A DNA stretch of 64,000 nucleotides from Geodermatophilus obscurus (GTDB lineage: Bacteria; Actinomycetota; Actinomycetes; Mycobacteriales; Geodermatophilaceae), in contig NZ_FRDM01000004.1 in the NCBI RefSeq assembly GCF_900143215.1, positions 186,001 through 250,000 on the forward strand, given 5' to 3'. Shown piece after piece: positions 1 to 60,903 of the stretch. The position numbers and the translations under genes were made by a program. Position 1 is the first letter of the stretch. Each line of letters begins with the position of its first letter. The notes under the pieces were generated by a model. That model was not told the origin of the DNA and made no database searches. It saw only the letters and a list, made by a program, of their open reading frames with translations.

Positions 1-552
1 CGCCGTCGTGCTCACCTCGGCGGCGAGCGCCACGACGTTGTCGCGGGTCTGCTCCCACTGCTGGTCGAGGGTGGCCCGCGTGGTCCGCATGCCCGAGGCC
101 AGGATGTCCAGCCGCTCCAGCACCTGGCTGCGCACCGCCGGCTCGGTCGGGTCCTGGGCGTTGGCCAGGGCGCTGAAGCCCGCCCACACGTCGTCCAGCA
201 TGCTGCGGATGCCGGTCTCCCCCGGCTCGCGGAAGGCGGCCTCGACCTGGGCCAGCGCCTCGTTACCGACGGTCAGCTGCGCGGTGCGCGCCGTCTCCAC
301 CTGGCCGCGCCGCTCCAGGAACACGTCGCGGATCCGGTTGACCTGGCTGGCGTCCACGCCGTTGCCGACCGGACTGCTCACCGAGTGGATCGCGGGGACG
401 GCAGTGCCCCCCATGGCGCGCAGCTCGACCCGCTGCCGCGAGTAGCCGTCGGTGTTGATGTTGGCGATGTTCTGGCCGGTGACGTCCAGCCCGCGTTGCG
501 ACGCCCACAGCGCCGTCCGGGCCGTGTTCAGCCCGCCGAAGGTGGAACTCAC
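1..552 (-). CDS. flgK: Flagellar hook-associated protein 1 FlgK (N-terminal part, runs off the left edge)
   Basis: The visible 184 codons give the N-terminus of FlgK, the first hook-filament junction protein, exported by the flagellar type III system. The start VSSTFGGLNTARTALWASQ is followed by GLDVTGQNIANINTDGYSRQ, the rod/hook-family signature with the SR(Q) variant typical of FlgK rather than FlgE or FlgB. A coiled helical stretch follows. The GTG start at 552-550 overlaps the stop of the bridging mini-ORF 549-629, whose AGCGAGGAG supplies the ribosome-binding site. It lies downstream of flgN on the same strand, so the chaperone is made just before its client. The C-terminus is outside the window. 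Confidence 0.93.
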   Translation of the reverse strand, partial: MSSTFGGLNTARTALWASQRGLDVTGQNIANINTDGYSRQRVELRAMGGTAVPAIHSVSSPVGNGVDASQVNRIRDVFLERRGQVETARTAQLTVGNEALAQVEAAFREPGETGIRSMLDDVWAGFSALANAQDPTEPAVRSQVLERLDILASGMRTTRATLDQQWEQTRDNVVALAAEVSTTA

Positions 553-629
553 TTGTACTCCTCGCTGACGCTCGTCGTCCGCGTTCGCGGCACGCCGGCT
601 CCCCGCTGTGACCTCGCGAGCCCGGTCAC
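549..629 (-). repeat. Bridging mini-ORF element, flgN-flgK copy
   Basis: An 81-nt open frame (26 codons plus stop) on the minus strand. It starts VTGLARSQRG and ends RTTSVSEEYK. Its GTG overlaps the flgN TGA (GTGA) and its TGA overlaps the flgK GTG (GTGA). The 3' part reads CGACGAGCGTCAGCGAGGAG, giving flgK a strong Shine-Dalgarno. The same two-ended overlap and length recur at six other junctions in the window. Whether the peptide matters or only the coupling is unknown. Confidence 0.8.
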
Positions 630-1120
630 AGAGCACCGTCCAGGGTGACCGCGCGGTGCGCGCGCTGGTCGCTGCGCCCGGTCGCCCCGTAGGTGCCGGC
701 CGACGGCGCCTTGACCGACAGCAACGCGTCGCCGAAGGCGGCGAGACCGCCCTCGATCAGCTCGCGGTTGGCGTCGGACAGGCCGCGCAGTTCCGTCACG
801 AGCACCAACAGCGTCTCGTGGTGCTTGGCGTACAGGTCGTTCCACGGGGCCGGGGCGGCCTCGGCGAGCTTGCGCAGCGACGGGTTCACGCCCACGCCCA
901 GCCGCTCGGCGATGACCTCGGTGGCCGCCGCACGCTCCACCTCGATGGTGCGCAGCTGGTCGAGCACGACCTCGATCTCGTGCGCGATGCGTGACAGCCA
1001 GCGGGTCTTGCCCGTGACGATCAGGTACTGCTTCTCCTCCGCCTTGAACAGCAGCAGGTCCAGCAGCTCCTGCTCGCGCCACAGCAACGTCGACAGGTGC
1101 TGGTAGTCCACGCCCCTCAC
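626..1120 (-). CDS. flgN: FlgN-type flagellar export chaperone
   Basis: A 164-residue, mostly helical protein. The central part (EELLDLLLFKAEEKQYLIVTG preceded by LLWREQ) and the later helices match the FlgN fold, the cytosolic chaperone that keeps FlgK and FlgL soluble and delivers them to the export gate. The GTG start at 1120 follows GGAGGGACG. A sigma-28-like promoter lies at 1178-1204, reading leftward. The tail beyond residue about 140 (SAGTYGATGRSDQRA) is low complexity. FlgN sequences diverge strongly, so the call rests on length, helix pattern and position just upstream of flgK. Confidence 0.82.
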   Translation of the reverse strand: MRGVDYQHLSTLLWREQELLDLLLFKAEEKQYLIVTGKTRWLSRIAHEIEVVLDQLRTIEVERAAATEVIAERLGVGVNPSLRKLAEAAPAPWNDLYAKHHETLLVLVTELRGLSDANRELIEGGLAAFGDALLSVKAPSAGTYGATGRSDQRAHRAVTLDGAL

Positions 1121-1177
1121 CGTCCCTCCGTACTCCCCGGGGCAGGCGTCGGTGCTGCCCGCGGGTTCTCAGGAGCA

Positions 1178-1204
1178 GCTTCGGCACCATCCGGGGGGCC
1201 TTGA
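1178..1204 (-). promoter_or_regulatory. Sigma-28 (FliA) promoter of flgN-flgK
   Basis: On the minus strand TCAA (1204-1201), 15 nt, then GCCGAAGC (1185-1178). It matches the window's FliA consensus TCA(A/G)-N16-GCCGATGA with one base less spacing. Its -35 box lies only 10 bp from the -35 box of the fliA promoter, so the two are back to back. Confidence 0.65.
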
Positions 1205-1214
1205 GCCGAGGTGC

Positions 1215-1242
1215 TCAAGTCGGGACGCGTCCGTGCCGATCA
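1215..1242 (+). promoter_or_regulatory. Sigma-28 promoter of fliA (autoregulation)
   Basis: TCAA (1215-1218), 16 nt, GCCGATCA (1235-1242). Predicted transcription start is about 1248, just upstream of the GTG at 1283. This excludes the longer upstream reading frame start at 1211 and implies that FliA drives its own gene. Confidence 0.75.
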
Positions 1243-1282
1243 GGGGGTGCCATCGGGGCCCGAGGCTGCCGAGAAGGGGGAC

Positions 1283-2374
1283 GTGAGCCCATCGCGTGCA
1301 CAGGCGACCCTGCGGTCCAGTGCCTCAGCCTCGCGCCTCCCCGTCGCCCCGGACGCCGGCCCCCCCGCCCGGCCACGCGCGGCCCGGGACACCTCGGCCC
1401 GGGACACCTCGACCCGCGACACCTCGACCCGCGACACCTCGACCCGCGACACCTCGACCCGCGACACCTCGACCCGCGACACCTCGACCCGGGACACCTC
1501 GACCCGGGACGTCGACGCCCTGGTGACCGAGCACCTGCCGCTGGCCGCCTTCGCGGTCAACGCGGTCGCGTCGCGCATCTCGCTGCCCGCGCACGTCAGC
1601 CGCGAGGACCTGCTGTCCTGCGCGCGCGTGGCGCTGGTCGAGGTCGCCCGGCGCTTCGACCCGTCCGCGGGGGCGTCGTTCGCCACGTACGCCCTGGCCC
1701 GGCTGCAGGGCGCCGTCCTCGACGAGTTGCGCTCCGGTGACTGGGCCAGCCGCTCCGTGCGGGCTGCCGCCCGGCGCACCGACGCGGCGGCCGACGCGCT
1801 GGCCATCCAGCTGGGCCGCCCGCCGACGCGCGGGGAGCTCGCCGCCAGCCTCGGCATGGCCACCAGTGACCTCGACTCCCTCCAGGTCGACGTCCACCGG
1901 GCGGTCATGGTGAGCATCGACGCCGAGACCGGTCCGGACGGCACCTCGCTCGACCTGCCCGACACGGGGGAGTCGCCGGAGCGGGCACTGCTGCGCAGCG
2001 AACGGTCCCGGTACCTGCACGAGGCGATCCGCCAGCTGCCCGACCGGCTCGACGAGGTCGTGGAGCGCAACTTCTTCGGAGGCGAGTCCCTCACCGACAT
2101 CGCCGCCGACCTCGGCGTCACCCTCTCCCGCGTCTCGCAGATGCGCGCCCGCGCGCTCACCCTGCTGCACGCGGCGATGAGCGAGGTGTGGGAGGGCAAG
2201 GCCGTGCCGGCCGACGGCGGGGTGCGCGCCCGCAACCAGCAGCGCTCCTACGTCGACCGGGTGGCCGGCCGCAACGCCCCGCCGGCTGCGGCCCCGCCGC
2301 TCCCCCACTCGCGTCCCGTGACCGTTCCGCCGCACCGCAACCCGTGGGTGACGGCGACCGGCCGGAGCGCCTGA
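1283..2374 (+). CDS. fliA: Flagellar/motility sigma factor, sigma-28 (FliA/WhiG type)
   Basis: Directs RNA polymerase to flagellar promoters. The start GTG 1283 is chosen because AGAAGGGGG precedes it and a sigma-28 promoter lies at 1215-1242; this gives 363 residues. The first ~75 residues are a low-complexity leader with eight RDTS pentapeptides. Region 2 follows (PLAAFAVNAVASRISLPAHV to RLQGAVLDELRS, then DWASRSVR, a FliA hallmark). Region 3 contains LGRPPTRGELAASLGM, and region 4 has QLPDRLDEVVERNFF and LTDIAADLGVTLSRVSQM. A ~60-residue Pro-rich tail follows. Typical FliA proteins are 240-280 residues, so both ends are extended. No anti-sigma gene flgM is visible nearby. Confidence 0.92.
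   Translation: MSPSRAQATLRSSASASRLPVAPDAGPPARPRAARDTSARDTSTRDTSTRDTSTRDTSTRDTSTRDTSTRDTSTRDVDALVTEHLPLAAFAVNAVASRISLPAHVSREDLLSCARVALVEVARRFDPSAGASFATYALARLQGAVLDELRSGDWASRSVRAAARRTDAAADALAIQLGRPPTRGELAASLGMATSDLDSLQVDVHRAVMVSIDAETGPDGTSLDLPDTGESPERALLRSERSRYLHEAIRQLPDRLDEVVERNFFGGESLTDIAADLGVTLSRVSQMRARALTLLHAAMSEVWEGKAVPADGGVRARNQQRSYVDRVAGRNAPPAAAPPLPHSRPVTVPPHRNPWVTATGRSA
1381..1515 (+). repeat. 15-bp tandem repeat inside fliA encoding RDTS pentapeptides
   Basis: Eight in-frame units of 15 bp, with GACACCTCG at exact 15-nt spacing from 1388 to 1493. They encode two ARDTS then six TRDTS units, ending in TRDV. The unit length keeps frame, so copy-number change would lengthen or shorten the sigma factor leader without breaking it. 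Confidence 0.9.
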
Positions 2375-2430
2375 GCCCGGCCGGCCCGACCGACCGACCG
2401 ACCGACCGCCGAGAGGGGACCACAGCAGAC

Positions 2431-3210
2431 ATGAGGTACTTCAACCTCACCCACCGGACCAGCGACTGGACGGTGCCCGCGTTCATGGAGCGGGTCTCCA
2501 CGGTGCCCGTCGGCGAGGGCGTGACCGACCTCAGCGAGCGGTACCCCCACCTCCGCGACCGAGGTCCGGAGCTCAGTGAGTACGCCACCCTCTTCGCGAT
2601 CCGACGCCTGCTCCAGGAGTCCTGGCCGGACGGCACCGCGCCGGAGGACGAGCCCATGGTGGGCATCTCCCACTACCGTCGCTACGCGGTCACCGAGCCC
2701 GTGGGCAAGCCCTCGTTCGTCTACGGCCTGGTGACCGCTGAGGAGTTCGAGCAGCTCCCGAACCAGCTCTTCGTCCCCCCGCCGAAGACGATCCTGATGC
2801 CGGCCCCGTTCGACCTCGGCATGCCGGTCGTCACCCAGTACGGCGTCGCACACGTGACCCGCGACCTGCTGCACTTCATGGGCATCGCCGTCGACCTCGG
2901 GGTCGTCGACGGCCGCGCCGTCAGCCACTTCCTGGGCCAGAACGTCATGATCGCCGCGCCGACCACCGGGGTCTTCCCGGCGGAGTGGCTCGTGCTGGTG
3001 CTCGAGGCGCTGGAGAGCGTGGTCGACGCGTTCGAGGCGACGGTCGCCGTTCCTCACGAGGGTTATCAGCGACGGGCTCTCGGCTTCTGTTGCGAGCGCC
3101 TGCACTCCCTGCTGACCGCCTCGCTGGTCGCCCGCTGGCCGGAGGACAAGCTCATCGCCACCCGCCCCGTCGTGGTGAGCGAGGAGGAGACCTACACCGA
3201 CGGCGGCTGA
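2431..3210 (+). CDS. DUF4422-like protein, possible glycan-modifying enzyme
   Basis: 259 residues, cytosolic, no signal or membrane segment. ATG 2431 is preceded by GAGAGGGG. The motif VGISHYRRY (about residues 76-84) resembles the G(L/I)CHYRRY core of DUF4422 proteins found in capsule and exopolysaccharide gene clusters. The later stretches QNVMIAAPTTGVFPAEW and YQRRALGFCCERLHSLL also fit that family's layout. It stands between fliA and the CDP-sugar genes, which suggests a role in building or attaching the flagellar glycan. The N-terminus before residue 40 is unremarkable. The family assignment is by motif memory only and the reaction is unknown. Confidence 0.55.
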   Translation: MRYFNLTHRTSDWTVPAFMERVSTVPVGEGVTDLSERYPHLRDRGPELSEYATLFAIRRLLQESWPDGTAPEDEPMVGISHYRRYAVTEPVGKPSFVYGLVTAEEFEQLPNQLFVPPPKTILMPAPFDLGMPVVTQYGVAHVTRDLLHFMGIAVDLGVVDGRAVSHFLGQNVMIAAPTTGVFPAEWLVLVLEALESVVDAFEATVAVPHEGYQRRALGFCCERLHSLLTASLVARWPEDKLIATRPVVVSEEETYTDGG

Positions 3211-3227
3211 CGGGCCGGCCGCGCGGG

Positions 3228-4645: not shown

Positions 4646-4647
4646 GG

Positions 4648-5694: not shown

Positions 5695-5695
5695 G

Positions 5696-13570: not shown

Positions 13571-13651
13571 ATGAGCGAGCTCGCGAGCGAATCGATGGAC
13601 GGTGCCACCGTGCGAGTGCGGCCGACGAGCGCCAGCGAGGAGGAGGCATGA
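13571..13651 (+). repeat. Bridging mini-ORF element, flgB-flgC copy
   Basis: 26 codons plus stop, starting MSELASESMD and ending PTSASEEEA. The ATG lies 2 nt after the flgB TGA and the TGA overlaps the flgC ATG (ATGA). CGACGAGCGCCAGCGAGGAG provides the ribosome-binding site of flgC. Confidence 0.82.
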
Positions 13652-14052
13652 GCACGTTCGACTCCCTCGGCATCTCCGGCTCCGGGCTGCTCGTCCACCG
13701 CAAGTGGCTGGACGCCGTCTCGGACAACATCGCCAACATCAACAACGTCACCTCGACCGACCAGGACGCGTTCCAGGAGCGGCTGATCGTGGCGCAGGCC
13801 GTCGACTACGGCTCCGGCGAGGGCGGGGTCCGCGTGGCCCGGGCCGAGTACGGCAGCGCGGAGGGCCGGATGGTCCACGAGCCCGACCACCCGCTCGCCG
13901 ATGCCAACGGCTACGTGCGGTACCCGGACATCGACCTGGGCGACCAGATGACCCAGCTGATCATGGCGCAGCGCGGCTACCAGGCGAACCTCGCCGTCGT
14001 CGAGCGCGCCACCACCGCCTACCAGGCCGCACTCCAGCTCGGGAAGGGCTGA
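13648..14052 (+). CDS. flgC: Flagellar proximal rod protein FlgC
   Basis: 134 residues. MSTFDSLGISGSGLLVHRKW and VSDNIANINNVTSTDQ are the rod-family N-terminal signature. The C-terminus QLIMAQRGYQANLAVVERAT is the matching helix that pairs with it in the rod. FlgC polymerises after FlgB. It is led by a bridging element rather than by direct overlap with flgB, and fliE follows after 2 nt. Confidence 0.94.
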   Translation: MSTFDSLGISGSGLLVHRKWLDAVSDNIANINNVTSTDQDAFQERLIVAQAVDYGSGEGGVRVARAEYGSAEGRMVHEPDHPLADANGYVRYPDIDLGDQMTQLIMAQRGYQANLAVVERATTAYQAALQLGKG

Positions 14053-19661: not shown

Positions 19662-20608
19662 CCGCGGTGCAGTCCCGGATCAGCGAGATCCAGGCCCGCT
19701 TCCTCACCGTGCCCCGCCCGGCGGTCTCCGCCGACTGGACCGCGGCCGCCAGCGCCGCCGGGCTCACCGGCACCGGCGCGACCTCCGCCGCGGCGGGCAC
19801 CGCCCCCGCCGGCAGCGCCTCGGAGGCCGCCGTCGTCGCCGAGGCCCGCAAGTTCCTCGGCGTCCCGTACCTGTGGGGCGGCACCGACCCGGCCAAGGGC
19901 CTGGACTGCTCCGGCTTCACCAAGCTCGTGTACGGCAACCTCGGCATCGAGCTGCCGCGCACCTCCTCGCAGCAGGCCACCGCCGGCACCGCGGTCGCCT
20001 CGCTGGCCGACGCCCGCCCCGGCGACCTGGTGTTCTTCGACCACTCCCCCGGCCGCCCCGGGATCGACCACGTCGGTATCTACGTCGGCGACGGCAAGAT
20101 GATCGCCGCCCCGCAGGCCGGCGAGGTGGTCAAGGTGCAGGACGTCGGCAACCCGGCGGTCATCCGGCGGGTGCTGCCCGCGGAGTCGGCGTCCGCCGTG
20201 CCTGCAACGGCGGCCGGCGCGTCGCTGTCCGGGGTTCCGTACGCCGACCTGTTCAGCCGGGCCGGCAGCCGGCACGGCGTCGACCCGGCGCTGCTCGCCG
20301 CCGTCGCGCAGCAGGAGTCCGGGTTCAACGCCTCCGCGGTCTCCCCCGCCGGCGCCCAGGGCCTCATGCAGTTCATGCCCGCCACCGCCCGGGGCCTCGG
20401 CGTCGACCCGCTCGACCCCGCCTCGGCCGTCGACGGCGCGGCCCGCTACCTGGCCGACCTGACCGAGCAGTTCGGCTCCACCGAGCTGGGCCTGGCCGCC
20501 TACAACGCCGGGCCCGGCACCGTCCGCCGCTACGGCGGCATCCCGCCGTACGCCGAGACGCAGAACTACGTCCGCAGCGTGATGAGCAAGGCGGAGGCCC
20601 TCAGGTGA
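19649..20608 (+). CDS. Two-domain peptidoglycan hydrolase: NlpC/P60 endopeptidase plus SLT lytic transglycosylase
   Basis: 319 residues. Residues ~55-170 form an NlpC/P60 (C40) domain: YLWGGTDPAKGLDCSGFTKL with the catalytic Cys, and IDHVGIYVGDGKMIAAPQ with the catalytic His. Residues ~195-319 form a Slt/goose-lysozyme-like domain: VDPALLAAVAQQESGFNASA with catalytic Glu, then SPAGAQGLMQFMPATA and GLAAYNAGPGTVRRYG. The start (VDGLTAVQSRISEIQARF) has no Sec signal, so export by the flagellar machine, as for FlgJ, is likely. It would open the wall for the rod. GTG 19649 lies inside fliJ (13-nt overlap). Confidence 0.88.
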   Translation: MDGLTAVQSRISEIQARFLTVPRPAVSADWTAAASAAGLTGTGATSAAAGTAPAGSASEAAVVAEARKFLGVPYLWGGTDPAKGLDCSGFTKLVYGNLGIELPRTSSQQATAGTAVASLADARPGDLVFFDHSPGRPGIDHVGIYVGDGKMIAAPQAGEVVKVQDVGNPAVIRRVLPAESASAVPATAAGASLSGVPYADLFSRAGSRHGVDPALLAAVAQQESGFNASAVSPAGAQGLMQFMPATARGLGVDPLDPASAVDGAARYLADLTEQFGSTELGLAAYNAGPGTVRRYGGIPPYAETQNYVRSVMSKAEALR

Positions 20609-20685
20609 CCGAGCTCGCGTGGGAACCCCGGGACACAGCACAGCCTGTCGTGGGAACGACGAGCGTCAGCGAGGAGAGACCATGA
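20605..20685 (+). repeat. Bridging mini-ORF element, hydrolase-fliK copy
   Basis: 26 codons plus stop, starting VTELAWEPRD and ending TTSVSEERP. GTGA overlap with the upstream stop and ATGA overlap with the fliK start. ACGAGCGTCAGCGAGGAG gives fliK its ribosome-binding site. Confidence 0.82.
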
Positions 20686-21983
20686 CAGCTCCCCTGGCAC
20701 CGGCCGCGCCGGCGCCCGCCCCGGCCGCCGCGAGCCCGGCCGCGACCGATTCGCCCGGCGGGGCCGAGCGCTTCGCGTCCGCCCTGGACGACGCGGTCGC
20801 CGGCGAGCAGAGCGGCCCCCGTGGCCAGGAACGGGCCGCGGAGACCGACGGCGCCCCGGCCGGGCCGGCTCCGGAGGTCCCGGCCGGTGACCAGCCCCCC
20901 GCCGAGCAGCCCGTCGCCGGACAGCCCGCCCTCTCCGGCGCCGGCATGCCACCGGGCCTGTGGGCGCTGCTCACCGGCATCGGCCCGGCAGCGGCCGGAC
21001 CGGCGATCGCCGTCGACCCCGCGGCCGCCGGCTCGGCGGTCGGAACGGTGGCCTCCGCCGTCGCGACCGGCACCGCGGTCCTGCCGTCCGTCGCGCTGCC
21101 CGTCGTCCCGGACGGCGTCCCCGCGGCGGTGCCGCCCGCCGGCATCCCCGCGCCCGCTCCCACCGGGCTCCCCGCGGGCGCGGTCCCCGTCCCGGACGCG
21201 CCGGCAGCCGACGCCGTCCTGCCCACCACCCCCGGACCGGTCCCGGCGACCGCCACGGTCGACCCGCTCCCCGGGATCACCGTCGTGCTCGCCGGTGCGG
21301 ACGCGCCCGGCACCCCGACGGCGCCGGAGCTCGTGACCCCGGACAGCGTCGTACCGCTCCCCCGGCCGGCCGCCGCCCCGGCTCCGGCGCAGGGCCCGGG
21401 CGCCGATCCCGGCTCCGCCCCCGACCAGGACGCCCCGGTGCCTGCCCTGGCTCCGGCCGCGGGCGGGAACCCCGCCGTGGTCGCCGCGCCCGCCGTCCCG
21501 ACGACGGCACCGGCGCCGACCGCCGGTCCGGCCGCTCCGGCCGCTCCGGCACCGCCGGTCTCCGGTCAGGTCGCGCAGCAGGTCGCCGTCCTGCGCTCCG
21601 CCCCGGACGGCACGCACACCATGACCCTGGTGCTCACCCCCGAGACCCTCGGACCGGTCGAGGTCCAGGTGACCCTGAGCCAGGGCTCGGTCGACCTCGC
21701 CCTGAAGAGCGCCACGGAGGCCGGCCGCGCCGCCCTGCTCGAGGCCCTGCCGGACCTCCGTCGCGACCTGGCGAGCGCCGGGCTCACCTGCACCAACGCC
21801 TCGGTGGACCGCGATGCCGGCGGCGCCTGGGCGTCGACCCAGCAGCAGGCGACCGGCGACCGCGCCGGCCAGCAGGGGCAGCCCGACGGCCGCAGCCGGC
21901 CGTGGCTGCGCGGCGCCGACGCCGACCCGGGCCGCCCCGACCCCACCGCCACCCCGTCGTCCGGCCTGGACGTCCGGGTCTGA
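20682..21983 (+). CDS. fliK: Flagellar hook-length control protein FliK
   Basis: 433 residues. The first ~300 are a Pro/Ala/Gly/Val-rich, disordered ruler-like region. The C-terminal Flg_hook domain is clear: HTMTLVLTPETLGPVEVQVT and GRAALLEALPDLRRDLASAG (about residues 307-370). FliK measures hook length and switches FlhB specificity. ATG 20682 overlaps the bridging mini-ORF stop. flgD and flgE follow, as expected. The low-complexity region is composition-driven and will align poorly. Confidence 0.88.
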   Translation: MTAPLAPAAPAPAPAAASPAATDSPGGAERFASALDDAVAGEQSGPRGQERAAETDGAPAGPAPEVPAGDQPPAEQPVAGQPALSGAGMPPGLWALLTGIGPAAAGPAIAVDPAAAGSAVGTVASAVATGTAVLPSVALPVVPDGVPAAVPPAGIPAPAPTGLPAGAVPVPDAPAADAVLPTTPGPVPATATVDPLPGITVVLAGADAPGTPTAPELVTPDSVVPLPRPAAAPAPAQGPGADPGSAPDQDAPVPALAPAAGGNPAVVAAPAVPTTAPAPTAGPAAPAAPAPPVSGQVAQQVAVLRSAPDGTHTMTLVLTPETLGPVEVQVTLSQGSVDLALKSATEAGRAALLEALPDLRRDLASAGLTCTNASVDRDAGGAWASTQQQATGDRAGQQGQPDGRSRPWLRGADADPGRPDPTATPSSGLDVRV

Positions 21984-27594: not shown

Positions 27595-28340
27595 CCGCCA
27601 CCGTGGAGCACTCCCAGGCCTCCGAGACCGTGATCGCCGTCGTGGCCTCCGCCGCCCGGGCCGCGGCCGCGCTGGTGCCGGCGACGGCCGAGCTCGTCCC
27701 CGGCGTCCCGGTCAGCGACCCCGACGCCGTCCTCGTCCCGGCCACGGCCGCCACCGCGGTCGCGGCGAGGCTCTCCGGCGAGGTGAGCGGCGACGTCGTC
27801 CTCGTCGTCTCCGCCGAGGTCGTCGACGCCCTCGCCAACTCCCCCGTCGGCCCGATGGACGTCGCCACGGCGCTGCGCCCGGCCCTCGAGGCCGCCGCGG
27901 CCACGCTGGGCCGGGTGCGCGTCGACGCCGAGCGCACCGAGGACCCGGACACCGCGATGGACGGCCTGCGGGACAAGGGCATGTTCGTCGCCGTCCCGCT
28001 GCTGGCCGACGGCGCCACCGTCGAGGCGGTCCTCGCCCTGCAGGTGACGCTGCCGCAGGCCCGCATCCAGCGCGGCAGCCTGGACCTGCTGCGGCACGTG
28101 GCCATGGAGGTCACCGTCGAGATCGGCCGCACCCGGATGACCGTCGGTGAGCTGCTCTCGCTGCACCCCGGCGAGGTGGTCGAGCTCGACCGCGCCGCCA
28201 GCGCCCCGGCCGACCTGCTGGTCAACGGCACGCTGATCGCCCGGGGCGAGGTCGTCGTCGTCGACGAGGACTTCGGCCTGCGGATCAGCGAGATCATCAC
28301 CGACGCCGCTGCGTCCGAGATCGGGGCGCAGCAGCGGTGA
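27591..28340 (+). CDS. fliN: FliN-type motor switch protein with an extra N-terminal domain
   Basis: 249 residues. The C-terminal ~75 (VAMEVTVEIGRTRMTVGELL; DLLVNGTLIARGEVVVVDED and FGLRISEI) is the FliN/SpoA domain that completes the C-ring. The N-terminal ~150 residues, with DVVLVVSAEVVDALANSPVG, resemble a divergent CheC/FliY-like domain rather than the short leader of enterobacterial FliN. A FliY-like phosphatase function is possible, but the CheC E-N active-site pair is not evident. A bridging mini-ORF separates it from fliO. Confidence 0.88.
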   Translation: MTATVEHSQASETVIAVVASAARAAAALVPATAELVPGVPVSDPDAVLVPATAATAVAARLSGEVSGDVVLVVSAEVVDALANSPVGPMDVATALRPALEAAAATLGRVRVDAERTEDPDTAMDGLRDKGMFVAVPLLADGATVEAVLALQVTLPQARIQRGSLDLLRHVAMEVTVEIGRTRMTVGELLSLHPGEVVELDRAASAPADLLVNGTLIARGEVVVVDEDFGLRISEIITDAAASEIGAQQR

Positions 28341-28417
28341 GCGAGGTGGCGGGCCCCGCCATGAGCGGAGCGACGTACGTCGTGCGGTCACCGGGCGCCG
28401 GCGAGGTGACGGCATGA
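28337..28417 (+). repeat. Bridging mini-ORF element, fliN-fliO copy
   Basis: 26 codons plus stop: starts VSEVAGPAMSG, ends PGAGEVTA. GTGA overlap with the fliN stop and ATGA overlap with the fliO start. It is the most divergent full-length copy; the 3' end reads GGCGCCGGCGAGGTGACG. Confidence 0.72.
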
Positions 28418-28812
28418 CGTGGATGGTCATCCGGCTGGTGCTCTCGCTGGTCTTCATCGGCGGCGTCCTGTGGTTCGCCGCGCGGGTCGCGAAGAAACGC
28501 GGCATCGGTCAGGGCAACGGCCTCATCGAGGTGGTCGCCCGGCAGCGCATGGGCCGGGCCAGCAGCGTCAGCGTCGTCCGCATCGCCGACCGCGTGCTGG
28601 TGGTCGGCTCCACCGAGGAGCAGGTCACCCTGCTCGCCGAGGTGGACGGCGACGTCGTCGAGGAGGCCATCGCCGAGCGGCGGCTGGCCGCCGCCCAGCC
28701 CGCGCTGAGCGGCGGGCCCGCTGGGCCCGGCGCGCTCGCCGGCTCGGTGTTCGACCGCAACGGCTGGACGACGTTCGTCAGCCAGCTGCGGGAGCGGACG
28801 GTCCGCCGCTGA
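28414..28812 (+). CDS. fliO: Flagellar biosynthesis protein FliO
   Basis: 132 residues with one N-terminal membrane helix (MVIRLVLSLVFIGGVLWFAA). A cytosolic domain follows with GLIEVVARQRMGRASSVSVV and ADRVLVVGSTEEQVTLLAEV, the FliO core. FliO helps assemble the FliP ring. The C-terminal ~40 residues (FDRNGWTTFVSQLRERTV) are often present in actinobacterial FliO. TGATG overlap with fliP. Confidence 0.88.
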   Translation: MTWMVIRLVLSLVFIGGVLWFAARVAKKRGIGQGNGLIEVVARQRMGRASSVSVVRIADRVLVVGSTEEQVTLLAEVDGDVVEEAIAERRLAAAQPALSGGPAGPGALAGSVFDRNGWTTFVSQLRERTVRR

Positions 28813-29648
28813 TGACCTCCTCCCCCGCTCCCGTCCGGGGCGTCCCGGTCGCCCGGCGCGTGGGGCTGGTCCTGCTGCTCGCGGCGCTGCTCGGTGTGGT
28901 GCTCGCGCTGCTGGCCGGCCCGGCGTCCGCCGCCCCCACCGCGCCCGTCGAGCCCACGGCCCCGACCGCTCCCGTCGTCCCCGGCGTCGACGGCGGTGTG
29001 GACATCTCGATCGGCGGCGGCAGCCCCAGCACGTCGATCACGCTGATCCTCGCGATCACCGTGCTCTCGGTCGCGCCGGCGGTGCTGCTGCTGGCCACCT
29101 CGTTCACCAAGATCATCGTGGTGCTGTCGCTGACCAGGAACGCGCTGGGCATGCAGATGTCGCCGCCGAACACGGTGCTCACCGGCATCGCCCTGTTCCT
29201 GACGCTGTTCGTCATGGGGCCGGTGTTCTCCGAGATCAACGGGATCGCCGTCCAGCCGTACCTCAACGGCGCCATGACGGTGTCGCAGGCCTACGACGTC
29301 GGCGTCGTCCCGCTGCGGGAGTTCCTGCTCGACAACACCCGCGAGGACGAGCTGTCGCTCATGGTCGGGCTCTCCGGCGAGGAGGCCCCGACCGACGCCG
29401 CGGCGGTGAGCATGACGACGCTCGTCCCGGCCTTCGTGCTGTCCGAGCTGAAGAGCGCGTTCATCATCGGGCTGGTCGTCTTCATCCCGTTCCTGGTGCT
29501 GGACATGCTGGTCAGCGCCGCGCTCATGTCGATGGGCATGATGATGGTGCCGCCGGTGATCGTGTCCCTGCCGTTCAAGCTGCTGCTGTTCGTGGTGGTC
29601 GACGGGTGGGCGCTGATCACGACGGCGCTGGTGGGGAGCTACGGATGA
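28812..29648 (+). CDS. fliP: Flagellar export gate protein FliP
   Basis: 278 residues. An N-terminal signal peptide (VGLVLLLAALLGVVLALLAG, then SAA) is followed by a Pro/Thr/Val spacer. The FliP core is ILAITVLSVAPAVLLLATSF, TKIIVVLSLTRNALGMQMSP and PPNTVLTGIALFLTLFVMGP. VVFIPFLVLDMLVSAALMSM and MMMVPPVIVSLPFKLLLFVV are the FliP signature helices. It forms the pentameric core of the export channel with FliQ and FliR. Confidence 0.95.
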   Translation: MTSSPAPVRGVPVARRVGLVLLLAALLGVVLALLAGPASAAPTAPVEPTAPTAPVVPGVDGGVDISIGGGSPSTSITLILAITVLSVAPAVLLLATSFTKIIVVLSLTRNALGMQMSPPNTVLTGIALFLTLFVMGPVFSEINGIAVQPYLNGAMTVSQAYDVGVVPLREFLLDNTREDELSLMVGLSGEEAPTDAAAVSMTTLVPAFVLSELKSAFIIGLVVFIPFLVLDMLVSAALMSMGMMMVPPVIVSLPFKLLLFVVVDGWALITTALVGSYG

Positions 29649-29725
29649 GCGAGCTCGCGAGCTCGTCGATGAGCACAGCAGCGCCGCGAACGGCCGCGAC
29701 GGGCGCCGGCGAGGAGTCCTCGTGA
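29645..29725 (+). repeat. Bridging mini-ORF element, fliP-fliQ copy
   Basis: 26 codons plus stop: starts MSELASSSMSTA and ends GAGEESS. ATGA overlap with the fliP stop, GTGA overlap with the fliQ start. GGCGCCGGCGAGGAG is the ribosome-binding end. Confidence 0.82.
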
Positions 29726-29997
29726 GCGACGCCGACGTCACCGAGATCGCCGTCGCGACCATGCTGGTCGCCGCCAAGGTCGCCGCACCCGTGCTGCTGA
29801 CCGCGCTGCTGGTCGGGTTCCTCATCTCGCTGTTCCAGGCGGCGACGCAGATCCAGGAGCCGACCCTCTCCTTCGTGCCGAAGATCATCGCGGTCGCGAT
29901 CGCGCTGCTGGTCACGGGCAACTGGGTGCTCTCCGAGCTGGTCACCTTCACCCAGGGCCTGTTCGACTCGCTGCCCCGCCTGCTCGACCGGACGTAG
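29722..29997 (+). CDS. fliQ: Flagellar export gate protein FliQ
   Basis: 91 residues, two membrane helices: LVAAKVAAPVLLTALLVGFL and KIIAVAIALLVTGNWVLSEL. The loop SLFQAATQIQEPTLSFVPK is the FliQ signature. It surrounds the FliPR core of the export gate. GTG start, coupled to the bridging mini-ORF. Confidence 0.95.
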   Translation: MSDADVTEIAVATMLVAAKVAAPVLLTALLVGFLISLFQAATQIQEPTLSFVPKIIAVAIALLVTGNWVLSELVTFTQGLFDSLPRLLDRT

Positions 29998-51212: not shown

Positions 51213-51213
51213 T

Positions 51214-53348: not shown

Positions 53349-53372
53349 CCCGCAGCGGCGGCGGCCGGCCGG

Positions 53373-55304: not shown

Positions 55305-55317
55305 CCGGGGTCCCCTC

Positions 55318-55398
55318 GTGACCGAGCTCGCGAGGTCACGCAGGCACGCAGCGCCCGGGGGCACCGGGCCGACGAGCGCCAGCGAGGAGGACCGGTGA
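55318..55398 (+). repeat. Bridging mini-ORF element, greA-RNHCP copy
   Basis: 26 codons plus stop: starts VTELARSRRHA and ends PTSASEEDR. It begins 13 nt after the greA stop, and its TGA overlaps the downstream GTG (GTGA). CGACGAGCGCCAGCGAGGAG is the ribosome-binding end. This copy shows that the element is not limited to flagellar genes. Confidence 0.82.
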
Positions 55399-55724
55399 CC
55401 CGTCCTGCGCGCTCCCGGCGGACGGAGAACACTGGGTTCGCCTGCGTCCACTGCGGGTCGGCGGTGCCGGCGAACACCGACGGGCACTACCGCAACCACT
55501 GCCCGGTGTGCCTGTGGTCGCTGCACGTCGACGACCTCCCCGGCGACCGGGCGAGTGCGTGCCGGGCGCCGATGGAGCCGATCGGCCTGGTGGAGAAGTC
55601 GGGCAAGGGCTGGCAGGTGGTCCACCGCTGCACGGCGTGCGGCCACCGCCAGCCCAACCGGCTGGTCCGCGAGGGCGACCTCCCCGACGACCTCGACGTC
55701 GTCCTCTCGCTACCCTGGTTGTAG
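55395..55724 (+). CDS. RNHCP domain zinc-finger-like protein
   Basis: 109 residues. FACVHCGSAVPANTDGHYRN and RNHCPVCLWSLHVD give the name-giving RNHCP box. Another Cys pair (HRCTACGHRQPNRLV) and Cys in RASACRAPM make a zinc-ribbon-like set. Family function is unknown; nucleic-acid binding is plausible. It follows greA through a bridging element, so they are probably cotranscribed. Confidence 0.9.
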   Translation: MTRPARSRRTENTGFACVHCGSAVPANTDGHYRNHCPVCLWSLHVDDLPGDRASACRAPMEPIGLVEKSGKGWQVVHRCTACGHRQPNRLVREGDLPDDLDVVLSLPWL

Positions 55725-55755
55725 CGAGGCCGACCGCGCCGCCCGGCTCCAGCTC

Positions 55756-57825
55756 TCAGCCGGCCGGCAGCAACCCCCGGCGGCGCAGCAACGGGGTGGG
55801 GTCGGCGTCCCGGCCGCGGACGGCGCGGAAGGCCTCCAGCGGGTCGACCGACCCGCCGACGGCGAGCAGCCGCGACCGGAACACCTCGCCGTTCTCCCGC
55901 CGCAGGCCACCGTTCTCCTTGAACCACTCCACGGTGTCGGCGTCGAGCACCTCCGACCAGATGTAGGAGTAGTAGCCGGCCGCGTAGCCCCCGGCGAAGA
56001 CGTGCTGGAAGTACGTCGTCCGGTAGCGCGGCGGCACCAGGTCGTGGGCGACGCCGGCCGCCTCCAGCGCGACCCGCTCGAACTCCTGGGGGTTCCCCAC
56101 CTCCGTCTCCGGCGTGATCCGGTGCCAGGCCTGGTCGAGCAGCGTCGCCGCCAGGTACTCCAGCGTCGCGAAGCCCTCGCCCCACAGCTGCGCGGCCTCG
56201 ATCGCCTCGACCACGCTGGCCGGCAACGGCTCGCCGGTGTCCACGTGCCGGGCGTAACCGGCCAGGACCTCCGGCCACAGCGCCCACATCTCGTTGACCT
56301 GGCTCGGGAACTCGACGAAGTCCCGCGGCACGCTGGTGCCGGCGAACCGCGGGTAGGTGACGGCGGAGCTCAGGCCGTGCAGCGTGTGGCCGAACTCGTG
56401 GAACAGCGTGTTGACCTCGTCGAGGGTGAGCAGGGTGGGCTGCCCGTCGGCGCCCCGGGTGACGTTGAGGTCGTTCACGACGACCGGCCGGGTGCCCAGC
56501 AGGCGCGACTGGGTGACGAACGAGCTCATCCAGGCGCCGCCGCGCTTGCCCTCGCGGGCGTAGAAGTCGCCGAGGTAGAGGCCGACCGTCTCGCCCGCCG
56601 CGTCGGTGACCTCCCAGACCCGGACGTCGGGGTGGTAGCCGACGAGGTCCGGCCGGGGCGTGAAGCGGTAGCCGTAGAGGCGTTCCGCGGTGGCGAAGAC
56701 GCCGTCGACGAGCACCCGGTCCAGCTCGAACCACGGCCGCAGCGCCGTGGTGTCCACCGAGTACCGCTCGGCGCGCACCCGTTCGCTGTAGAACGCCCAG
56801 TCCCAGGGCGCCAGCTCCGTCACGCCGTCGGTGGCGGCGACCTCGGCCAGCGCGGCGGCCTCCGCCTGCGCGTTGGCCATCGACGGGCCCACCATCCGGG
56901 CGAGCATCGCGTCGACCGCCTCGGTGCTGCCCGCGGTCTGGTCGGCCAGCACCAGGTCGGCGTGGGTGTCGAAGCCCAGCAGCCGGGCCCGCTCGGCGCG
57001 CGTCCGGGCGATGCGGACGGCGACCGGCCCGTTGTCGTGCTCGCCGCCCGACGCCCGGCCCACCGACGCCTCGAAGACGCGGCGACGCAGCTCCCGGTTC
57101 CGCAGCTTGGCCAGCACCGGCTGGCCGGTGGGCAGCAGCAGCGGGATGAGGAACCCGGGAACCCCGCGGTCGGCGGCGGCACGGGCCGCCGCGGCGACCT
57201 CCTCGGCCCTGAGCCCGTCGAGCTCCGCGGCGTCGGCGACGACGACGGCGGCGGCCTCGGTGGCCAGCTGCAGGTTCTGCCCGAACGTCGTCGACAACTC
57301 CGACAGCTCGCGGTTCAGCTCGGTCAGCCGGGCCCGGCCGGCCTCGTCGAGGCGCGCGCCGGCGAGCACGAAGTCCAGGTGGTAGCGCTCCACCAGCCGC
57401 ACCGCCTCGGCGTCCAGGCCGCTGTCGTGCCGCTGCACGTGCACGGCGTCGATGCGGGCGAAGAGCGCGGGGTCCAGCCGCAGGGCGTCGGCGTGCGCGG
57501 ACTCCAGCGGGGCCAGCTCCCGCTCGATCTCCCGCAGCTGGTCGGTCGCGACCGACGAGGCGAGGTTGTGGAAGACCGCGCCGGCGCGGCGGTACAGCCG
57601 TCCGGACCGCTCCAGCGCGACGACGGTGTTCTCGAACGCCGGCGGCTCGGGCGACCCGACGATGGCAGCGACCTCGGCGCGCTGCTCGGCCATCCCGGCC
57701 AGCACCGCCTCGCGGCAGTGCTCCAGGGTGATCTCCGCGAAGGGCGGCAGCTGCAGCGGCAACGGCGACGGCTCGAGCAACGGGTTGTCGGCGGACGGGG
57801 CGGCGGAGGCGGGAACGGCGCTCAT
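55756..57825 (-). CDS. M3 family zinc oligopeptidase (Dcp/OpdA type)
   Basis: 689 residues from ATG 57825. VNTLFHEFGHTLHGLSSAVT holds the HExGH zinc motif. PRDFVEFPSQVNEMWALWPE supplies the downstream Glu, and FAGGYAAGYYSYIWSEVLDA is the dipeptidyl-carboxypeptidase signature near the C-terminus. No signal peptide, so a cytosolic peptide-degrading enzyme. CAGGAT ends 8 nt before the ATG. Dcp versus oligopeptidase A cannot be separated by eye. Confidence 0.92.
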   Translation of the reverse strand: MSAVPASAAPSADNPLLEPSPLPLQLPPFAEITLEHCREAVLAGMAEQRAEVAAIVGSPEPPAFENTVVALERSGRLYRRAGAVFHNLASSVATDQLREIERELAPLESAHADALRLDPALFARIDAVHVQRHDSGLDAEAVRLVERYHLDFVLAGARLDEAGRARLTELNRELSELSTTFGQNLQLATEAAAVVVADAAELDGLRAEEVAAAARAAADRGVPGFLIPLLLPTGQPVLAKLRNRELRRRVFEASVGRASGGEHDNGPVAVRIARTRAERARLLGFDTHADLVLADQTAGSTEAVDAMLARMVGPSMANAQAEAAALAEVAATDGVTELAPWDWAFYSERVRAERYSVDTTALRPWFELDRVLVDGVFATAERLYGYRFTPRPDLVGYHPDVRVWEVTDAAGETVGLYLGDFYAREGKRGGAWMSSFVTQSRLLGTRPVVVNDLNVTRGADGQPTLLTLDEVNTLFHEFGHTLHGLSSAVTYPRFAGTSVPRDFVEFPSQVNEMWALWPEVLAGYARHVDTGEPLPASVVEAIEAAQLWGEGFATLEYLAATLLDQAWHRITPETEVGNPQEFERVALEAAGVAHDLVPPRYRTTYFQHVFAGGYAAGYYSYIWSEVLDADTVEWFKENGGLRRENGEVFRSRLLAVGGSVDPLEAFRAVRGRDADPTPLLRRRGLLPAG

Positions 57826-57996
57826 CGCCGCCCATCCTGCGCCCGACCGCACGAGTGCACCCGGGTGGCCCGGAACCGACCCCGGTCCGGACCACCCGGG
57901 GCCGGGCCCCCAGCGGAGCTGCTCCGCGCGGGTCGGGACCGCTCCTGGCGCGGTGTCGGCGGTTCCCGGGAGCCGGGGTCCTGCAGGTGCTCCCCG

Positions 57997-59235
57997 TCAG
58001 CCGGTGGTCACCGTGTACCCGGCCCGGTCGAGCCGGGCCAGCAGCTCCTCGGCGTGCTCGGGCCCGCGGGTCTCCAGGACGACGAACACCTCCACCTCGC
58101 CGAGGCCCAGCCGGGTCGCCGTCCGCTCGTGCTCGACCTCCAGCACGTTGGCGCCGACCTGGGCCAGCTCCGTGAGCACCGCGGCCAGCGACCCCGGTCG
58201 GTCGGGCACCCGCAGCCGCAGCGACTGGTAGCGCCCGGCCGCGGCCATGCCGTGCTGCACCACCTTGAGCAGCAGCACCGGGTCGATGTTGCCGCCGGAG
58301 ACGACCGCGACGACGGGCGGCGGGAAGGCGGCCGGGTCAGCGAGCACGGCGGCGACGGCGGCCACCCCGGCCGGCTCGACGACGAGCTTCGCCCGCTCCA
58401 GGCAGAACAGCAGCGCCTGCGAGAGGTCCTCCTCGCTGACCGTGCGCACCTCGTCGACCAGGTCGCGGACGTGCGCGAACGTCAACTCCCCGGGCGAGCC
58501 GACGGCGATGCCGTCGGCCATCGTGGTCATCCCCGTCAGCGCCACCGGCCGGCCGGCTGCCAGCGACCCGGGGAAGGCGGCGGCCGCCGCGGCCTGCACG
58601 CCGACCACCCGCACGTCGGGACGGCGGGCCCGCACCGCGGCCGCGACACCGGAGACCAGGCCCCCGCCCCCGGTGCAGACGACGACGGTGGCCACGTCGG
58701 GGCACTGGTCGAGGACCTCCAGGCCGACCGTGCCCTGCCCGGCGATCACGTCGGGGTGGTCGAACGGGTGGACGAACACCGCGCCGGTGCGCTGCGCGTG
58801 CTCGGCGGCGGCCGCCAGGGCCTCGGTCAGCGAGGCGCCGCCCAGCCGGGCCTCGGCGCCGTAGCCGCGGGTGGCCGCCACCTTGGGCAGCGGCGCGCTC
58901 TCCGGCATGAACACCGTCGCCCGGATGCCCAGCAGCTGCGCGGCCAGCGCCACCCCCTGCGCGTGGTTGCCGGCGCTGGCCGCGACGACGCCCCGCGCCC
59001 GTTCCTCGGGCGACAACCGCGCCAGCCGCGTGTAGGCACCGCGGATCTTGAACGAGCCGGCGCGCTGCAGGTTCTCGCACTTCAGCCACACCGGGCCGCC
59101 GACCCGCTCGGCCAGCGCCCGCGAGTGCTCCAGCGGCGTGCGCCGGACGACGCCGTCCAGCAGCGCCGCCGCGGCCTCGACGTCCGCTCCCCCGACCAGC
59201 GCGACGCCGTCCCGCCGCGGCTCTCCCGCCACCAT
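57997..59235 (-). CDS. ilvA: Threonine ammonia-lyase (threonine deaminase)
   Basis: 412 residues. It converts threonine to 2-oxobutanoate, the first step to isoleucine. NLQRAGSFKIRGAYTRLARL carries the PLP lysine (Lys63). SAGNHAQGVALAAQLLG and VVCTGGGGLVSGVAAAVRA are the substrate and phosphate loops. The C-terminal ACT domain (SLRLRVPDRPGSLAAVLTEL; ANVLEVEHERTATRLGLGEV) is single, as in the shorter IlvA/TdcB-like forms with regulatory tail. GAAGAT ends 6 nt before the ATG. Confidence 0.92.
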   Translation of the reverse strand: MVAGEPRRDGVALVGGADVEAAAALLDGVVRRTPLEHSRALAERVGGPVWLKCENLQRAGSFKIRGAYTRLARLSPEERARGVVAASAGNHAQGVALAAQLLGIRATVFMPESAPLPKVAATRGYGAEARLGGASLTEALAAAAEHAQRTGAVFVHPFDHPDVIAGQGTVGLEVLDQCPDVATVVVCTGGGGLVSGVAAAVRARRPDVRVVGVQAAAAAAFPGSLAAGRPVALTGMTTMADGIAVGSPGELTFAHVRDLVDEVRTVSEEDLSQALLFCLERAKLVVEPAGVAAVAAVLADPAAFPPPVVAVVSGGNIDPVLLLKVVQHGMAAAGRYQSLRLRVPDRPGSLAAVLTELAQVGANVLEVEHERTATRLGLGEVEVFVVLETRGPEHAEELLARLDRAGYTVTTG

Positions 59236-59305
59236 GGGTCGATCTTCGCAGCACGGAGGCCCAGGTGGCAGCGACGGACGGGTGCCCGTGCCGCCGGTCG
59301 CGTCG

Positions 59306-59318
59306 TACCGTGGCTGGG
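59306..59318 (+). promoter_or_regulatory. Leaderless-type -10 of the MoxR-like gene
   Basis: TACCGT (59306-59311) ends 7 nt before GTG 59319; no Shine-Dalgarno follows. Confidence 0.5.
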
Positions 59319-60824
59319 GTGACGGACCCCGGCGTTCCCGCCTCCGCTCCCCCTGCACCCACGACCCTCGGCGAGCTCCGCGACAGCGGGGCCACCCCCC
59401 GGCCGGTCAAGGCCGAGATCCGCGCCAACCTGCTCGCCCGCCTGGCCGCCGGCGAGCCGTCCCTGCCCGGCATCGTCGGCTTCGAGGACACCGTCGTCCC
59501 CGAGGTCGAGCGCGCCCTCATCGCCGGCCACGACCTCGTCCTGCTGGGCGAGCGCGGCCAGGGCAAGACCCGGCTGATCCGCACCCTGGTGGGCCTGCTC
59601 GACGAGTGGACGCCGGTGCTCACCGGCAGCGAGCTCAACGAGCACCCGCTGGCCCCGATCAGCGTGTGGGCCCACCGGCAGATCGCCGAGCACGGCGACG
59701 CCACGCCCGTCGGCTGGCTGCACCGCAGCGAGCGCTTCGGCGAGAAGCTGGCCACCCCGGACACCAGCGTCGGCGACCTCATCGGCGACGTCGACCCGAT
59801 CAAGGTGGCCGAGGGCCGCACCCTGGGCGACCCCGAGACGGTGCACTACGGCCTGGTGCCGCGCACGAACCGGGGCATCTTCAGCGTCAACGAGCTGCCC
59901 GACCTCGCCGAGCGGATCCAGGTCTCGCTGCTCAACGTGCTGGAGGAGCGCGACATCCAGATCCGCGGCTACCGGGTGCGGCTGCCGCTGGACCTGCTGC
60001 TGGTGGCCAGCGCCAACCCCGAGGACTACACCAACCGCGGCCGGATCATCACCCCGCTCAAGGACCGCTTCGGCGCCGAGGTGCGCACCCACTACCCGAT
60101 CGAGCTGGCCGACGAGGTGCGCCTGCTGACCCAGGAGGCGCACACCAGTTGGCCGGGGTGGGCGGGCGGCAGCGACGCAGCCGGCCGGGCGGGGGCCGGC
60201 CTCGCCCGTGGTGAGCAGCTGGAGACGCCGCTGGTGCCCGAGCACCTGGTGGAGATCGTCGCCCGCTTCACCCGGCTGGTCCGCGACTCCAACCACGTCG
60301 ACCAGCGCTCCGGCGTCAGCGCCCGGTTCGCCATCGCCGGGCTGGAGACGGTGGCCGCCTCCGCCGTCCGCCGGGCCGCCCTCGCCGGGGAGACCCGGCC
60401 GGTCGCCCGCGTCGTCGACCTGCCCAGCATCGTCCCGGCCAGCCGGGGCAAGGTCGAGTTCGCCGACTCCGGCTCCGACCCGGACGACGAGCGCGAGACC
60501 GAGGTGCTCGAGCACCTGCTGCGCCAGGCGACCGCGCAGACCTTCCGGGCCCGCTGCGCCGGGCTGGACCTGACCGGACTGCAGGAGCACTTCACCGGCG
60601 GGGAGACCGTGGAGTCCGGCGAGCTGGTGCCGGCCGCCGCGCTCCTCGGCCAGCTGGGCACCATCCCGAAGCTGGCCGAGCTGCTGGGCCGGCTGGGCGT
60701 GCCGGAGGGCGAGCAGTCCGCCGAGCAGGCCGCCGCCGCGGTGGAGTTCGCCCTGGAGGGCCTTTACCTGACCCGGAGACTGGCCAAGGACACCGACGGC
60801 GTGCGCACCGTCTACGGAGCCTGA
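59319..60824 (+). CDS. AAA+ ATPase of the MoxR / magnesium-chelatase-like family
   Basis: 501 residues. Walker A LLGERGQGKTRLIRTL, then a long insert with HPLAPISVWAHRQIAEHGD. RGIFSVNELPDLAERIQVSL carries Walker B, followed by NVLEERDIQIRGYRVRLPLD, ASANPEDYTNRGRIITPLKD (sensor) and SGVSARFAIAGLETVAASAV. Such ATPases work with a VWA partner, encoded next, to load metals or remodel protein complexes. GTG 59319 fits a leaderless start; the frame is open upstream without similarity. Confidence 0.88.
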   Translation: MTDPGVPASAPPAPTTLGELRDSGATPRPVKAEIRANLLARLAAGEPSLPGIVGFEDTVVPEVERALIAGHDLVLLGERGQGKTRLIRTLVGLLDEWTPVLTGSELNEHPLAPISVWAHRQIAEHGDATPVGWLHRSERFGEKLATPDTSVGDLIGDVDPIKVAEGRTLGDPETVHYGLVPRTNRGIFSVNELPDLAERIQVSLLNVLEERDIQIRGYRVRLPLDLLLVASANPEDYTNRGRIITPLKDRFGAEVRTHYPIELADEVRLLTQEAHTSWPGWAGGSDAAGRAGAGLARGEQLETPLVPEHLVEIVARFTRLVRDSNHVDQRSGVSARFAIAGLETVAASAVRRAALAGETRPVARVVDLPSIVPASRGKVEFADSGSDPDDERETEVLEHLLRQATAQTFRARCAGLDLTGLQEHFTGGETVESGELVPAAALLGQLGTIPKLAELLGRLGVPEGEQSAEQAAAAVEFALEGLYLTRRLAKDTDGVRTVYGA

Positions 60825-60825
60825 C

Positions 60826-60903
60826 GTGAGCGAGCGTGCGAGCTCACGCATGAGCACAGCGTCCAGGGCCACTGGGCCGACGAGCGTCAGCGAGGAGGGC
60901 TAG
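60826..60903 (+). repeat. Bridging mini-ORF element, MoxR-VWA copy
   Basis: 25 codons plus TAG: starts VSERASSRMSTA and ends PTSVSEEG. It starts 1 nt after the MoxR gene stop, and the last base of its TAG is the first base of the VWA gene's GTG (TAGTG). CGACGAGCGTCAGCGAGGAG precedes. The only copy with a one-base rather than ATGA/GTGA overlap. Confidence 0.8.

Follow-up and report, generated by a model that had tools for sequence, protein, structure and literature searches.

A 77-nt repeat family inserted at bacterial start codons carries internal segments that match its landing site

Introduction

IS200/IS605 elements and the repetitive extragenic palindromes (REP) moved by REP-associated tyrosine transposases (RAYT) transpose as single strands, insert 3′ of a tetranucleotide and use hairpins and guide pairing near their ends. 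The mycobacterial interspersed repetitive units (MIRUs) have served as typing markers for decades, and the description that a review gives of them reportedly goes back to work by Supply in 1997. In the excerpted text of that review they are mobile, inserted at start codons, and hold an internal open reading frame (ORF) coupled at −4 nt (PMC12548453); no explanation of how they move or choose start codons turned up among the entries listed in the literature searched. The bridge RNA of IS110, as portrayed in the excerpted source, has two internal segments that fit opposite target strands and whose matches overlap at the same letters of the target (PMC11208160). Here we describe a 77-nt repeat family recognised in a 64,000-nt stretch of Geodermatophilus obscurus DNA (contig NZ_FRDM01000004.1, positions 186,001–250,000; hereafter the window), which like MIRUs sits on RTGA starts (R being A or G), and whose internal segments match the letters of the site where each copy lies.

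The first-pass annotation of the window had read seven copies of this element as a mini-ORF bridging coupled genes and relaying the ribosome, with a variable middle. The family, its placement, its insertion and its likeness to MIRU stand, and the selected relay finds little support; the variable middle, overlooked as a signal, follows the landing-site letters. This matching is what is new here, and it hints at target choice.

Internal Segments Matching the Landing Site

Element positions are numbered from the first R (position 0) of the left RTGA; position 0 is a letter of the upstream gene, and 82–84 are letters of the downstream gene, outside the element. The covariation analysis was restricted to copies of 77 nt, which were thinned at 80 percent identity to sets of 79 (of 90), 125 (of 154) and then 150 non-redundant copies, and in all three sets internal segments match the junctions: in the left hairpin 0–6 pairs with 17–23, on the right side 41–50 is complementary to the junction 75–84, and segment 37–39 is identical to 82–84. 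The pairing fractions at 43–82, 42–83 and 41–84 are 0.87, 0.87 and 0.73 (shuffles 0.47, 0.67 and 0.39), and identity at 37–82, 38–83 and 39–84 reaches 0.81, 0.83 and 0.58 (shuffles 0.44, 0.65 and 0.37), while positions 44–46 oppose the invariant TGA and hence fall outside covariation testing. Over the 150 copies the summed z of the helix is 62 at register 0 against −16 to 9 at shifts of 1–6, and that of the identity 26 against −5 to 4. Only 11 of 3,726 tests of flank against element exceed z 5, all at positions 0 or 82–84, and the signal stops at 84; in the earlier 125-copy set all three identity letters were matched in 63 copies, the shuffled mean being 15 and the maximum 28 in 500 shuffles.

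This is not merely a difference between two lineages, since the match holds within the two main subclasses (41–84, z 4.7 and 6.7) and within 40 copies of the window's own genome (41–84 z 5.7, 43–82 z 4.6, 37–82 z 4.9). Seventeen Pseudonocardiaceae copies gave a weaker signal in which most pairs point in the same direction (z 1.4 to 5.2), the exceptions being 49–76 and 0–23. Segment 37–39 depends on the flank given 41–43 (z 5.3, 5.9, 3.1), as does 41–43 given 37–39 (z 13.0, 7.5, 9.2), whereas the two segments are nearly independent of each other given the flank (z 2.8, 2.2, 2.6); the flank is the hub. The more a copy has diverged, the weaker is its flank match (rho −0.27, p 0.0008), with means of 5.06, 4.51, 4.27 and 3.25 of 6 over divergence bins of 66, 65, 15 and 4 copies, as expected if the match was set at insertion, which favours a choice of target at that step.

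These results bear on two other ways in which such a match could arise. Hairpin template switching might repeatedly copy the flank into the near-palindromic segments during or after insertion, with no guiding at all, and the matching of even rare flanks (CAG, CGG, TCG, GTG) by guides unique in the genome would suit such a correction; we nevertheless hold it to be improbable, as the hub is the flank and not segment 41–44, simple inverted-repeat correction does not yield a direct-repeat identity with the flank, and both the sharp stop at 84 and the decay with divergence speak against it. Somewhat less improbable, yet still unlikely in our view, is a structure of the messenger RNA (mRNA) acting in cis, where helix 41–50/75–84 would hide the downstream start while its loop held the Shine-Dalgarno sequence, a ribosome passing along the mini-ORF would open it, and guide and second codon would co-evolve. 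The helix is indeed contiguous across the junction, element-internal pairs included, and copies of the same gene with different flanks often each fit their own; 64 of 150 copies are predicted to form it with a probability above 0.5, and the mean folding z is −0.76, which gives moderate support. However, the identity of 37–39 with 82–84 is independent of the helix and cannot form one in cis, and the MIRU-type units described below show identity, not complement. G-U is not enriched among the non-Watson-Crick cells of hairpin 1 (12/85) or of the internal pairs (28/169) and is only slightly up at the flank pairs (13/79 versus 11 percent expected), for the seven window copies folding is no stronger than in shuffled sequences (z −1.29 to 0.83), and the decay with divergence counts against this explanation as well.

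It is the gene, not the element, that supplies the flank letters, as orthologues holding no copy have them naturally: empty fliQ orthologues within the genus (L438, L439, L440) display both types of second codon, and empty fliO orthologues display a cgt or cct flank. Overwriting of the flank by the element was rejected as unneeded, both codon types being already present in empty relatives. Orthologous genes with different second codons hold copies of the fitting class (for example ccg/gcg flanks in L045/L324 and L072/L130), and others are a poor fit (L302). Target-site duplication was also rejected as the sole cause in this family, because 37–39 is internal to the unit and flanks such as cag are not reflected at its left end.

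A Dispersed Family Placed on Gene Starts

That the element forms a dispersed, genome-wide family was borne out by pattern scans of its own genome (5.24 Mb, 112 contigs) against reversed-pattern controls, with 79 matches versus 6 for the 3′ 20-mer at up to three mismatches, 73 versus 2 for the 5′ hairpin pattern, and 43 versus 0 for the 77-nt frame pattern. Copies from several organisms were selected by eye, with removal first of 19 loci that lay in other REP-like contexts and then of 32 of 171 rows for want of a nearby RTGA; 135 of the 139 copies have a recognisable 5′ end, and in 90 of these the distance from the left RTGA to the right one is exactly 77 nt. The copies lie in sense orientation, in some places as tandem arrays (spacing 77 or 78 nt), and differ between related species. 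Several contigs of the own genome (C35/C68, C45, C55; L038, L049, L276, L277) end inside tandem arrays of the element, so that true array lengths may exceed those assembled and the number of units may vary.

Among 12 named genomes scanned, eight hold the 77-nt pattern (reversed control 0), namely Blastococcus mobilis (37), Geodermatophilus sabuli (32), Kutzneria viridogrisea (29), Pseudonocardia nigra (13), Amycolatopsis arida (9), a Modestobacter (8), G. aquaeductus (5) and P. halophobica (4), and it was absent from the Gordonia, Gandjariella, Nocardioides and Microlunatus genomes of this set. A scan of the collection returned at least 114 stretches, the named matches listed including Blastococcus, Modestobacter, Pseudonocardia, Amycolatopsis and Kutzneria. 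Six loci bearing copies matched no curated Rfam family at E values up to 1. The exact 3′-end 20-mer is also found as the loop of REP-like hairpins with other stems, both in Nocardioides and in a record of low GC content that bears the label Blastopirellula (L133, L136, L119, L121, L138, L064, L114).

The context of 63 own-genome copies was scored by a codon-usage coding test, whose script caught five of the seven window copies and lost the fliN-fliO copy, which is too diverged, and the MoxR-VWA copy, which is without a right RTGA. In-frame coding directly follows 49 of the 62 testable copies and antisense coding follows none; the other 13 include eight units from inside tandem arrays and the two copies at the fliK and RNHCP starts. 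For comparison, the window has 227 ordinary RTGASC sites, of which 29 score as gene starts when judged in this way. Upstream, 46 copies have co-directional coding, 29 of them with the exact 4-nt stop/start overlap, and of the 62 copies whose upstream side was scored, 15 are preceded by non-coding sequence and one by antisense coding. The same-strand placement at gene starts, often with overlap at both ends, therefore holds, and no copy was seen before antisense coding when orientation was checked. The right RTGA begins exactly 5 nt past GAGGAG in 120 of 171 rows, so that the 3′ end of the element is, as had been claimed, a built-in Shine-Dalgarno sequence for the next gene (GAGGAG-N5-RTGA).

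Orthologous junctions with and without the element are available for comparison. At fliP-fliQ, a close relative (L175) has the empty site ctacgg-ATGA-GCGACGCC, and the window has ctacgg-ATGA-GCGAG...CTC-GTGA-GCGACGCC, a gain of 77 nt in which the left RTGA is retained and the right RTGA comes from the element. Of 30 relatives' loci at this junction, six hold the 77-nt family (L184 in diverged form), eight a second family and one a remnant, and 15 are empty; none of 12 additional loci is filled. The flgB-flgC junction is filled in 4 of 30 relatives' loci, and fliN-fliO holds the 77-nt family in three of 30 and the second family in one, the other 26 being empty. Insertion is a clean addition of 77 nt 3′ of an RTGA, in most cases a start codon that shares bases with a stop, and the empty ATGA sites in relatives substantiate the earlier view that the element inserts between coupled genes. 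Filled and empty orthologous sites, the mark of mobility in MIRU, are thus both found for this family. The built-in Shine-Dalgarno sequence together with the clean RTGA insertion explain why insertions are tolerated.

Copies in the Window

All seven elements noted in the window were confirmed at their coordinates and strands. Their mini-ORF is open for 26 codons in six copies and for 25 in the MoxR-VWA copy, it closes on the downstream start in all seven, and its first RTGA overlaps the upstream stop in four (flgN, the gene before fliK, fliN and fliP), following it at 1 nt after MoxR, 2 nt after flgB and 13 nt after greA. The shared peptide motifs proved softer than claimed, with ELA at residues 3–5 in four of seven and TS(V/A)SEE in five. 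Pfam supported the neighbour names for all eight proteins tested, which are FliK, FliN, FliO, FliQ, GreA, RNHCP and the flgB-flgC flanks (a flagellar rod protein upstream, a FlgC-like protein downstream); the names FlgN, FlgK, FliP, MoxR and VWA are carried over from the first reading.

The right guide matches all three flank letters in five of the six testable window copies. In the flgB-flgC copy (13571–13651, plus strand) guide 41–50 lies at 13611–13620, the Shine-Dalgarno-like GAGGAG at 13637–13642 and the right junction 75–84 at 13645–13654; the right guide matches its flank gca at 3/3 letters, and three relatives hold orthologous copies (L204–L206). The same copy exemplifies the left hairpin segment (13571–13592, plus strand), positions 1–22 with stem 1–6/17–22, as based on the covariation of 1–22 and 5–18. 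Both internal segments match the flank at 3/3 letters in three copies, all on the plus strand: at fliP-fliQ (29645–29725) 37–39 is at 29681–29683, 41–50 at 29685–29694 and the right junction at 29719–29728, with flank gcg; at greA-RNHCP (55318–55398) 37–39 is at 55354–55356, 41–43 at 55358–55360 and flank ccc at 55399–55401; and before fliK (20605–20685) 37–39 reads CAG (20641–20643) and 41–43 CTG (20645–20647), next to the uncommon flank cag (20686–20688).

The diverged fliN-fliO copy (28337–28417, plus strand) has ACG at 41–43 (28377–28379), a right guide that matches the natural fliO flank cgt (28418–28420) at 3/3 letters. An older-looking copy at flgN-flgK (549–629, minus strand), with 41–50 at 580–589, 37–39 at 591–593 and the flank at 546–548, matches 2/3 letters by the identity segment and only 1/3 by the right guide. 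The MoxR-VWA copy (60826–60903, plus strand) is 78 nt long with TAGTG in place of the right RTGA, and having no right RTGA it was excluded from the 77-nt covariation sets. The window also holds a 15-nt tandem repeat (CCCGCGACACCTCGA type) of at least eight units at 1324–1510.

Is the Mini-ORF Selected?

The mini-ORF is translatable and its ends are well placed, with little sign of selection on peptide or frame. All 150 copies are open in one antisense frame, 145 of them in frame 0 and 144 in frame +2, and the variability at the three codon positions is 0.84, 0.80 and 0.73 bits, so that position 3 is not freer. Unit length is 77 nt in 90 of 135 copies; where it departs from 77, frame is preserved in 23 of 45 copies against 15 expected, and in 6 of 13 in the own genome, which amounts to only a mild preference for multiples of three. 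A mini-ORF kept by selection is therefore poorly supported, and a selected peptide was rejected as the main driver on account of the open alternative frames and of a third codon position no freer than the others. The start and stop geometry at both ends and this slight excess of in-frame lengths are what a ribosome relay would predict, but the non-coding upstream side of 15 own-genome copies leaves no translation to relay at those sites, and the middle does not drift freely. We give the relay explanation very little credence.

A Possible Mechanism of Guided Insertion

We see about an even chance that the family is a non-autonomous, MIRU-type mobile mini-element whose segments guide insertion and whose copies persist because translation is retained. 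A recombinase would probably be supplied in trans, and the internal segments would serve as guides at insertion, the element landing where a start codon and its next three letters fit. Its end, GAGGAG-N5-RTGA, restores a Shine-Dalgarno sequence and a start to the downstream gene, and copies may persist since insertion at such a place keeps the translation of genes, and their coupling, running, the peptide itself being unimportant.

Several observations weigh against guided insertion. No mobilising gene was found in searches for Y1 transposases and IS110 recombinases: the Y1 search returned none in nine genomes, the same search being positive in 5 of 14 controls, and IS110 recombinases are present in eight of nine, but 12 IS110 loci gave only unconvincing motif matches at four mismatches and no 5′ hairpin. 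The internal pairs 49–76 and 50–75 do not decay with divergence (rho −0.03), and since they lie inside the element part of the pairing is structural. The guide of the fliK copy (CAG/CTG) is unique among 41 own-genome copies, and the matching of a rare flank by both segments of such a copy is not predicted by a simple inherited-guide model. The old, vertically shared fliN-fliO copies still match their flank, and the start-codon preference itself could reflect selection. A Y1 transposase of RAYT type moving a REP element, or a bacterial interspersed mosaic element (BIME), would be in keeping with the REP-like hairpins of Nocardioides and other records that have the 3′ 20-mer as their loop, yet with Y1_Tnp missing in 9/9 genomes we regard it as scarcely credible.

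In the search for an autonomous partner, contig-end and 5′-only copies each resolved into a tandem array, a degenerate copy or a variant with the cassette. Viral contigs gave three loci with the motif, none with the element around it, and plasmids gave no match.

MIRU-Type Units, a Second Family and a Hairpin Cassette

A MIRU-type core was found in 5 of 201 genomes, in the family of Gordonia polyisoprenivorans. Eighteen of 29 units were used, the other 11 being without RTGA at the expected place, and 14 of the 18 show a 53-nt period, 53 bp being a known MIRU class. The units end in AGCGATGAGGAGGAG-type, purine-rich Shine-Dalgarno-like DNA, and the letters after RTGA agree between their two ends at the first position in 15 of 18 and at the second in 13 (shuffled 5.6 and 6.0), a likeness that we count in favour of guided insertion.

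A second RTGA-bounded family (CGAGCGAGCATCGC...GCGACCGAGGAGCGGAACGAG...GGAGTCGAGCC-ATGA) occupies fliP-fliQ in eight relatives and fliN-fliO in one (L174, L180, L185, L190, L191, L193, L195, L196, L335, L194), and 11 rows of this second Geodermatophilaceae family are, by eye, similar to the MIRU-type units. In the 53-nt units, and likewise in the second family, RTGA and at least two letters may have been duplicated at the target site.

A 24-nt hairpin cassette, GGGGGCACCNCCCGCTTGCGGGGG, lies within members of more than one RTGA-bounded family and, at many sites, by itself. It is present in some copies of the 77-nt family (L283, L338, L345), of the second family (L174, L195, L196, L335) and at MIRU-type loci (L381, L387, L407). 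The 77-nt family and the MIRU-type units have this cassette and a similar Shine-Dalgarno-like core in common, but within the Gordonia family only 3 of 30 cassette loci stand in MIRU-type context and 27 outside it, so that the cassette is weak as proof and common descent is not proven.

Comparison with Known Systems

With IS200/IS605 and REP/RAYT the 77-nt element has in common the insertion 3′ of a tetranucleotide also carried at its own right end, and hairpins and guide pairing near the ends; it differs in that the Y1_Tnp search of nine genomes found no Y1 transposase.

The likeness to MIRU that had been pointed out extends to the start-codon site, the 4-nt overlap, tandem copies and mobility. 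Judged by the excerpted review, both are short sense-oriented repeats at RTGA starts with a −4 overlap, a coupled ORF and tandem arrays (PMC12548453); they differ in core sequence and host family, the named hosts of the 77-nt family not being Mycobacterium. The 53-nt MIRU-type units share site and geometry with the 77-nt family, whereas the left hairpin and complementary right guide of the 77-nt unit are absent from them. It is a tentative thought that MIRU-type elements at large are self-addressed, each copy holding a two-strand guide that names a start codon and its next three letters, with a recombinase inserting it in trans; this, taken jointly and as tentatively, would account for the landing of MIRUs on start codons. 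Target-matched segments in any case offer a concrete, testable mechanism for MIRU-like start-codon choice, and do so in hosts that are not pathogens. If they are guides, they would form a very small programmable, start-codon-directed insertion system, and if they are mRNA structure, a portable module of translational coupling; either way, caution is needed in annotating short ORFs at such junctions.

The logic resembles that of the IS110 bridge RNA, although we do not claim membership. Like the bridge RNA as far as the excerpted source portrays it, the 77-nt family has two segments that fit opposite target strands, overlap on the target and covary with both strands, and the bridge RNA was found by covariation of target and RNA, analogous to the flank covariation seen here (PMC11208160). 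Against that same portrayal, the 77-nt unit is without a recombinase of its own and is known here from DNA sequence alone, and the letters matched are its right end plus three host letters, not both halves of a target. Were the self-addressed reading true, a guide-directed insertion system of only 77 nt would exist, separate from the known bridge-RNA elements.

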